Source of the DNA: a bacterium
GTDB lineage: Bacteria > Armatimonadota > Fimbriimonadia > Fimbriimonadales > Fimbriimonadaceae
Length of the DNA: 64,000 bases
Direction: 5' to 3'
NCBI GenBank assembly: GCA_027485645.1
Contig: JAIXQR010000007.1
Location: forward strand, 124,001-188,000
Shown here piece by piece: positions 33,903-35,825 of this stretch (its first letter is position 1; each line of letters begins with the position of its first letter). The translations under genes were made by a program, and so were the position numbers. The notes below the pieces were generated by a model. It did not search any database, was not told the origin of the DNA, and saw only the letters and a program-made list of their open reading frames with translations.

Positions 33903-34781
33903 TTAGCCTACTTTTGCGAGGGCTTCTTGGAGCAAGCGGGGAACGTCGCTGGTGCGATCTGCAACCGCGGCTCCGGCTTCGAGGAGTGCGTTCACCTTCG
34001 ATTCTGGCGTTCCGGTGTTTCCGCTGATAATGGCACCGGCGTGACCCATTCGCTTTCCTGGAGGAGCCGTTCGGCCCGAGATGAATCCGACGACCGGCTT
34101 GGTCATCGACTTCATGTACTCACAAGCGGCTTCTTCGTCTGATCCGCCGATTTCGCCAACCATCACGACCGCCTTGGTTGCGGGGTCCTTTTCGAACATC
34201 TCCATGACTTCGATGAATCGAGTGCCGGGGAGTGGGTCGCCACCGATACCAACGCAGGTGGTCTGGCCGAGATCCGCGCGGGTCATTTCCCACACGATTT
34301 CGTAGGTCAAGGTTCCGGATCGGGAGACCATGCCCACGGGGCCGGGCTTGAAGATGTTGCCGGGCATGATGCCCATCTTGCACTCGCCGGGAGTGATGAT
34401 TCCGGCGCAGTTTGGTCCGAGCAATCGGCTTGTGTTGTTATCGCGAACTCGGTTGACCATTCGGATCTCGTCGTGAATGGGCAGCCAGTCCGAGATGCAG
34501 GTGATGAACTCAACGCCGGCGTCTTCGCACTCGAGCACAGAGTCAGCGGCAAACGGGCCAGGAACAAAAATGATCGCGGCGTCGGCTCCGGTTGCTTCTC
34601 GAGCTTCCTTCACGCTGTCAAATACGGGCCGGTCGAGGTGGGTCGTGCCGCCTTTGCCGGGGGTAACTCCCGCTACCACTTGCGTTCCGTACTGAATCAT
34701 TTGTTCGGCGTGGAAACTGCCTTCCTTTCCGGTCATGCCGCAAACGATAACGCGGGTGTTTTTATCGACAAGGATCGCCAT
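33903..34781 (-). CDS. sucD: Succinyl-CoA synthetase alpha subunit
   Basis: The subunit binds CoA and carries the phosphohistidine, generating ATP/GTP from succinyl-CoA in the TCA cycle. The 292-residue product has VIVCGMTGKEGSFHA, GVTPGKGG, LLGPNCAGIITPGECKMGIMPG, GMVSRSGTLTYE, GIGGDPLPGTRF and GKRMGHAGAIISG with the phosphorylated His. sucC, normally just upstream, is not in the window. A TATCCT hexamer lies 11 bases before the ATG. Confidence 0.95.
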   Translation of the reverse strand: MAILVDKNTRVIVCGMTGKEGSFHAEQMIQYGTQVVAGVTPGKGGTTHLDRPVFDSVKEAREATGADAAIIFVPGPFAADSVLECEDAGVEFITCISDWLPIHDEIRMVNRVRDNNTSRLLGPNCAGIITPGECKMGIMPGNIFKPGPVGMVSRSGTLTYEIVWEMTRADLGQTTCVGIGGDPLPGTRFIEVMEMFEKDPATKAVVMVGEIGGSDEEAACEYMKSMTKPVVGFISGRTAPPGKRMGHAGAIISGNTGTPESKVNALLEAGAAVADRTSDVPRLLQEALAKVG

Positions 34782-34847: not shown

Positions 34848-34853
34848 TATAGT
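34848..34853 (+). promoter_or_regulatory. -10-like hexamer upstream of the c-di-AMP riboswitch
   Basis: TATAGT lies about 15 bases before the start of the riboswitch core, so a transcript starting near 34860 would include the complete aptamer. No consensus -35 is seen. Confidence 0.4.
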
Positions 34854-34867
34854 TTTGTTGGCGATAA

Positions 34868-34990
34868 AGCCAAGCGCTTAATCTCTGGTTTCAGAGAGCG
34901 GGGGAACCGTACTTATAGGGGTGAATGGGGCAGAAATGCCACTAGGGGAGCTCTTGACCCGAACCCGACAGCTAACTCCGTAAGCGATGT
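34868..34990 (+). ncRNA. Cyclic di-AMP riboswitch (ydaO-yuaA type)
   Basis: The plus strand carries the ydaO aptamer landmarks in order: CGCTTAATCTCTG...CAGAG, AGCGGGGGAACC, GGGGTGAAT, a variable hairpin GGGGCAGAAATGCC, then CCCGAACCCGACAGCTAAC and CCGTAAGCG. The closing helix pairs CGCTTA (34875-34880) with TAAGCG (34981-34986). The class binds c-di-AMP and usually turns expression off in genes for potassium transport, osmolytes or cell-wall hydrolases. Here it points at hisB, 230 bases downstream. The identification rests on consensus recalled from knowledge, and the match is extensive. Confidence 0.9.
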
Positions 34991-35057
34991 GAGAGTCGAA
35001 TCTCGTGCACGAAGCAGGTTGAACGACCTGTGGATAGACAGGACGATGTTGTTCTTT

Positions 35058-35091
35058 CGACGAGTTTGTGACCCTTGCCTTTGTCGTTTTT
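35058..35091 (+). terminator. Weak candidate terminator downstream of the riboswitch
   Basis: CGACGAG (35058-35064) can pair with TTTGTCG (35080-35086) including two G-U pairs, and five T follow (35087-35091). It could be the riboswitch expression platform, but the long loop makes it weak. The gap 34782-35222 contains otherwise only the riboswitch and the hisB hexamer. Confidence 0.3.
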
Positions 35092-35210
35092 CGGGGGCGC
35101 GACCGATTGGTCTCGACGAAATGGCTTCGATGTTGAAGCTGGAGGCGAGCACTTTTCCAAGCGCACCCGTTTTTTGGTTCGGTTAATCCTCGCGACACAT
35201 GACGTTAGAG

Positions 35211-35216
35211 TAGATT
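35211..35216 (+). promoter_or_regulatory. -10 hexamer of a leaderless promoter, hisB
   Basis: TAGATT ends six bases before the hisB ATG at 35223. Confidence 0.6.
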
Positions 35217-35222
35217 TATCGG

Positions 35223-35825
35223 ATGGCAAAGTCTGCACCGGGCGTCCGGTACGCCGAACTAGAGCGCGAAACGAGCGAAACGCGGGTGACGGTGGTTTTG
35301 GATCTTGACGGCGGCACGCGTCAGGACATTTCGACCGGAGTCGGGTTCTTTGACCACATGCTGCAGCTGATGGCCTTCCATGGTCAGCTTGATCTCGGCA
35401 TCACTTGCGAAGGCGACCTTGAAGTGGATGATCACCACTCGGTCGAGGATTGCGGAATTGTGCTCGGGCAGGCCTTTGCGCATGCGATTTCTGAGGAAAA
35501 GAGCATTCAGCGTTACGCGAGTAACCACACGCCGATGGATGAAGCGCTTGTGCTCGTTGCGCTCGATATCAGCGGTCGCGGAATTCTCGGCTACAACGTG
35601 AACTTCAAGCGCGAGAAGATCGGCGATCTTTCGACCGAGTGCATTCGGGAGTTTTTCCGAGCTTTCACGACGCACGCTAAGGTGACGCTTCACATTCATC
35701 AGATCGCAGGCGAGAACGATCACCACATCTGCGAGGCTATTTTCAAAGGCGTCGGAAGGGCGTTGAAGTTTGCGGCGGAGAAGTCGGAACGTCGATCGAG
35801 TTCCACTAAGGGTAAGCGGGACTGA
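35223..35825 (+). CDS. hisB: Imidazoleglycerol-phosphate dehydratase
   Basis: HisB removes water from imidazole glycerol phosphate in histidine synthesis. The 200-residue single-domain product has the duplicated metal-binding motifs: GVGFFDHMLQLMAFHGQ and DDHHSVEDCGI in the first half, HIHQIAGENDHHICEAIFKGVGRAL in the second. There is no N-terminal phosphatase domain as in the enterobacterial fusion. A TAGATT hexamer six bases upstream indicates its own leaderless promoter, although a c-di-AMP riboswitch lies 230 bases further up. Confidence 0.97.
   Translation: MAKSAPGVRYAELERETSETRVTVVLDLDGGTRQDISTGVGFFDHMLQLMAFHGQLDLGITCEGDLEVDDHHSVEDCGIVLGQAFAHAISEEKSIQRYASNHTPMDEALVLVALDISGRGILGYNVNFKREKIGDLSTECIREFFRAFTTHAKVTLHIHQIAGENDHHICEAIFKGVGRALKFAAEKSERRSSSTKGKRD

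Follow-up and report, generated by a model that had tools for sequence, protein, structure and literature searches.

Between the divergent genes sucD and hisB, in the 64,000-nucleotide stretch of a Fimbriimonadaceae genome analysed here (the window), lies an element that we consider rather probably to be a stand-alone noncoding RNA gene, which would sense c-di-AMP and end before hisB. Its layout is that of an aptamer, a conserved noncoding segment and a predicted terminator, with no conserved open reading frame (ORF). The features are as follows; promoter, terminators and RNA ends are predictions.

33903-34781, minus strand: sucD (succinyl-CoA ligase alpha; PF02629/PF00549), divergent neighbour, in conserved synteny
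34848-34853, plus strand: putative -10 box for the RNA gene (TATAGT), some 12 nt 5' of the aptamer
34865-35000, plus strand: c-di-AMP (ydaO/yuaA) riboswitch aptamer, RF00379, found by cmscan
34997-35088, plus strand: conserved structured noncoding tail, from the match to model R1 and covariation
35015-35020/35025-35030 and 35040-35045/35050-35055, plus strand: tail helices, from covariation
35058-35091, plus strand: weak terminator-like hairpin (35058-35086) followed by T5, fold -5.6 kcal/mol, putative role
35092-35175, plus strand: terminator-like closing stem CGGG.GCGC/GCGC.CCCG followed by T6, fold -32.3 kcal/mol
35211-35216, plus strand: putative -10 box TAGATT of hisB, 6 nt 5' of the ATG, without a Shine-Dalgarno sequence
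35223-35825, plus strand: hisB (imidazoleglycerol-phosphate dehydratase; PF00475, E=4.6e-63)

The initial annotation had described a near-complete ydaO-type aptamer on the plus strand upstream of hisB, and had proposed a covariance-model search as a check. The aptamer is real and complete: the match to RF00379 scores 88.2 bits (E=2.9e-19), exceeding the gathering cut-off of 38 bits, and covers the full model, positions 1-134 of 134. It is the only copy that a whole-genome search found in the 3.19-Mb genome (G000). The same genome encodes a diadenylate cyclase, the c-di-AMP synthase domain PF02457 (E=4.4e-41), which is present in 60 of the 61 genomes searched, and we infer that the window's aptamer binds c-di-AMP. 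The TATAGT box is kept in the nearest relative, G014, and boxes resembling TACAAT, TATGAT or TAGAGT were seen by eye at the equivalent position in other relatives. A consensus scan found no full sigma-70 promoter for the RNA gene.

Downstream of the aptamer, the segment from 35001 to approximately 35175 consists of a second conserved RNA domain and a terminator-like stem, rather than of an empty leader. Tails differ between genera, so that a single alignment of all of them was unconvincing, and covariation was therefore tested in the window's genus only, where nine other relatives can be aligned over the first 90 nt of the tail. A covariance model (R1) built from nine relatives of the genus, leaving out the window and G014, gave a single match in the 64 kb, with 36.3 bits (E=1.8e-6), abutting the aptamer. 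Among 85 genomes of the family, R1 matched in 11, all from the window's genus, once in each and always abutting the aptamer. In the two tail helices, 89.6% of the cells are paired versus 80.8% after shuffling, a value reached by none of 500 shuffles, and the covariation score is 0.437 versus at most 0.259 for slid controls. Taken alone, hairpin a has a covariation reached by none of 5000 shuffles, and hairpin b is weakly supported. Identity between G000 and G014 is 98.5% in the aptamer, 91.5% in the tail up to the T-run, 66% from the T-run to hisB and 84.4% in the hisB coding DNA. At the 3' end, the closing stem pairs 35092-35100 with 35161-35169, ahead of T6 at 35170-35175, and the weak hairpin sits inside the tail. 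Relatives have stronger or more canonical terminator-like structures than these two.

The comparison set comprised about 100 relatives, in which the DNA around RF00379 matches was examined. RF00379 was found in 84 of 113 genomes of the order (Fimbriimonadales) and in 120 of 291 genomes of the phylum (Armatimonadota). Most aptamers of the order fall into two groups. In group A, the aptamer is followed, after 20-110 nt, by a Shine-Dalgarno sequence and the gene for a small, mostly basic protein of approximately 90-130 aa. In group B, it is followed by some 50-190 nt without an ORF and then by a terminator-like hairpin with ACCUCC(U) immediately ahead of it. By its position and tail, the window's element is assigned to group B. 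Within the family, this group precedes hisB at 25 loci, spread over 11 genera (the few motif-less copies included), at 185 to approximately 870 nt (once 1.4 kb), often with the divergent sucD on the opposite side; the placement between sucD and hisB recurs in many relatives. Group B is also found at other sites. Elsewhere in the phylum, RF00379 occurs in ordinary cis arrangements, with no ACCUCCU motif. The same-locus comparison suggested by the initial annotation thus yielded no element that always precedes a transporter gene: in many relatives the next gene is hisB, or there is no co-directional gene after it.

Several other arrangements were recorded in this survey. Group A loci include L031, L052, L055, L066, L071, L101, L053 and L072, and their proteins are of the MLTEFEVRRR..PMRKAR..LLRL.. 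and MRLL.RVERAF.. types; no Pfam match was obtained in the examples tested, and these uncharacterised small proteins are probably under c-di-AMP control. A third arrangement, seen in the roughly 300 nt downstream at L017, L069, L073, L090, L117, L124 and L129, has a long leader. Several copies carry GGAGGAGGAG as a stretch close to the aptamer, several have ACCTCC near +130 to +177, and most have a membrane-transporter-like gene (..LTVxxDxLSF..IPD..) beyond the leader. At L029 (genome G011), the aptamer and its tail are separated from hisB by an ORF of 357 codons. The RNA's motif and terminator are missing there, as if an insertion had interrupted the RNA gene. At L043 and L080, from other families of the order, the aptamer lies directly before an asparagine-synthetase-like gene (M.GI.C.I...HRGPDG). 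Genomes G022, G080 and G081 and most of family f2 gave no RF00379 match, although almost every one of them that was searched for a diadenylate cyclase has one; this is a lineage-specific absence of the riboswitch.

The group B motif is strongly tied to its place. Within 240 nt downstream of the aptamer, ACCTCCT is found at 50 of 137 loci in the order versus 0 of 44 in the rest of the phylum; upstream of the aptamer it occurs at 2 of 137, and in control windows at 1.3%. It usually stands directly 5' of the terminator: at 43 loci, ACCTCC lies 25 nt or less from a terminator-like hairpin; among 244 other terminators of the same DNA, used as controls, 2 have it so close. The letters ACCUCCU are those of the anti-Shine-Dalgarno end of 16S rRNA. 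Around this constant core the tail varies with the family, as AGCACCUCCUGUUGAGC in f1 and GA[CU]ACCUCCUGAC in f5. In f5, a strong hairpin and a T-run come directly after the aptamer, before the tail that bears the motif, a layout that would be that of a switch gating a noncoding product.

A partner for ACCUCCU in cis was considered and rejected, its complements being weaker than in shuffled upstream sequence (-11.2 versus -12.4 kcal/mol). The motif is predicted to be somewhat more unpaired than its surroundings (0.45 versus 0.35), ACCUCC being partly paired in many copies. Weak cis complements and greater unpairedness are what one would expect if the motif is to stay available for another partner. 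Tests for specific partners were negative. In 85 genomes, the complement of an extended 13-nt motif showed no excess over a reversed-pattern control, the RNA gene itself aside, and the ACCUCCU RNA paired no better with the riboswitch-controlled small-protein mRNAs of its own genome (-16.4 kcal/mol) than with those of other genomes (-17.8 kcal/mol). Because of these results, we infer, rather than observe, an action through the anti-Shine-Dalgarno-like motif.

The CCUCC motif, present in about 50 relatives, is absent from the window's copy. Both the window and G014 have AGCACTTTTCC in its stead, and the window's closing stem occupies the place of the relatives' ACCUCCU and terminator. An altered 16S 3' end was rejected as the cause: that of the window's genome is ordinary (TGGATCACCTCCT), so the loss of the motif is not explained by a changed ribosome.

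Could the element simply control the gene next to it? As an ordinary cis riboswitch, it would let c-di-AMP favour the terminator and lower read-through into hisBHA, one of the options raised by the initial annotation. The co-directional hisB that follows it in 25 relatives of 11 genera, with a terminator-like stem between, is what speaks for this. However, some 6-15 nt before the hisB ATG, approximately 20 of these 25 loci carry a hexamer resembling a -10 box (GTATAA, TANNNT or similar), and 24 of the 25 are devoid of a Shine-Dalgarno sequence; such a pattern would fit a leaderless mRNA transcribed from a promoter of its own, as the initial annotation had surmised for the his genes. Most of these loci also have a terminator-like hairpin between the RNA and hisB (a few more were identified by eye). 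Given this promoter pattern and the intervening hairpin, control of hisB by the riboswitch appears unlikely, and hisB is probably a neighbour of the RNA gene, not its target. At five loci (L005, L019, L025, L054, L084), moreover, the next called gene after the element is on the opposite strand, so that there is no directly downstream gene to control. Cis regulation also leaves the conserved structured tail and ACCUCCU unexplained, and we regard it as quite unlikely; read-through into the his genes does not fit these loci. The last option of the initial annotation, an orphan or trans-acting RNA, is the one that the relatives support. The remaining candidate target named by the initial annotation was a 46-codon ORF at 35046-35186. 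The frame does exist and is open in the window, but a one-base insertion breaks it half-way in G014, it has no counterpart in other relatives, no Shine-Dalgarno sequence precedes it, and substitutions follow the RNA pairing. Across the compared relatives no conserved ORF was found downstream of the aptamer. We thus hold a riboswitch acting on this frame to be very improbable and discard the frame as a product; the tail is best read as RNA, not as a peptide gene.

Two further explanations concern the motif and its loss. The window's copy might be a decaying relic, whose function went with ACCUCCU and the original terminator. CCTCC is indeed missing only in the window, G014, L029 (where a separate gene precedes hisB) and a few diverged copies, and the window's tail scores far below the tails of relatives (36 versus 69-106 bits). 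Against decay, the aptamer, with its 88 bits, is intact and nearly identical in G014. The tail, at 91.5% identity, has also diverged less than the hisB coding DNA (84.4%) or the spacer beyond the T-run (66%), which makes a relic improbable in our opinion. Alternatively, ACCUCCU could be a protein-binding, processing or termination signal, and the RNA could act otherwise, for instance by sequestering a protein as Rli55 does. The failure to find a specific RNA target agrees with this, as does the fixed place of the motif beside the terminator. What such a signal does not account for is the exact match of the seven conserved letters to the anti-Shine-Dalgarno core, within tails whose remainder varies from one family to the next. 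We think this explanation unlikely, while taking it seriously.

The stand-alone RNA gene that we favour would run from its own promoter through the c-di-AMP aptamer and a structured tail to a terminator. The aptamer would sense c-di-AMP, and ligand binding would decide whether the tail is transcribed, or which fold it presents. In most relatives, the ACCUCCU beside the terminator would then probably base-pair in trans with G-rich translation start sites, and it is through this anti-Shine-Dalgarno-like motif that the RNA probably acts there. In the window and G014, the motif is gone and the aptamer and tail are conserved, so the output would be a c-di-AMP-sensing RNA whose 3' end is altered. 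Having kept the sensor and tail and lost the presumed seed, it may act differently or be losing its function. A broader proposal can be put forward only tentatively, and we would sooner doubt than believe it: an RNA found throughout the Fimbriimonadales might place an anti-Shine-Dalgarno element like that of 16S rRNA under the direct control of a c-di-AMP aptamer, and so let this messenger tune the translation of Shine-Dalgarno-led mRNAs in trans and spare leaderless genes like hisB.

As a second messenger, c-di-AMP reports on the osmotic condition of the cell and on its wall, and its riboswitches are regarded as cis regulators of genes for transport, osmolytes and the cell wall. The window's aptamer is a full-length, high-scoring member of this class; it differs in having no plausible cis gene downstream and in running into a conserved noncoding tail. 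Short C-rich motifs complementary to Shine-Dalgarno sequences, such as that of the window element's relatives, are known from C-rich small RNAs of the RsaE, LhrC and RNAIII type, which target Shine-Dalgarno sequences. To our knowledge, those RNAs carry no ligand-binding aptamer; here the relatives' motif adjoins the terminator, and it has been lost in the window's genome. Riboswitch-headed regulatory RNAs have been described for B12 (Rli55, AspocR) and SAM (SreA) (PMC8079631). Rli55 and EutX, the B12-riboswitch-headed small RNAs of the eut locus, resemble the present element in that a metabolite aptamer stands at the 5' end of a noncoding RNA near, but separate from, a protein operon; there the ligand decides whether the noncoding part is made, and Rli55 acts by sequestering a protein (PMC8079631). 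In our case the ligand is c-di-AMP, no ANTAR sites were seen, and the relatives' tail has an anti-Shine-Dalgarno-like motif. SreA, a SAM riboswitch that acts in trans on prfA mRNA (PMC8079631), is likewise a terminated riboswitch RNA able to act in trans; it also controls a gene in cis, whereas none is evident for the window's element. In a review, c-di-AMP riboswitches are presented as elements that regulate in cis and are linked to many genes (PMC7266159). In the open papers searched, with partial coverage, we found no c-di-AMP riboswitch heading a noncoding RNA, and no paper on a Fimbriimonas riboswitch.

Since the comparison with relatives suggests an RNA that ends before hisB, the puzzle of why histidine genes should follow a c-di-AMP aptamer dissolves, and the neighbouring hisB should not be read as the regulated gene. 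Within the literature searched, this conserved stand-alone RNA with its aptamer would be the first c-di-AMP-sensing noncoding RNA. If this is true, c-di-AMP would gain a possible direct route to translation.
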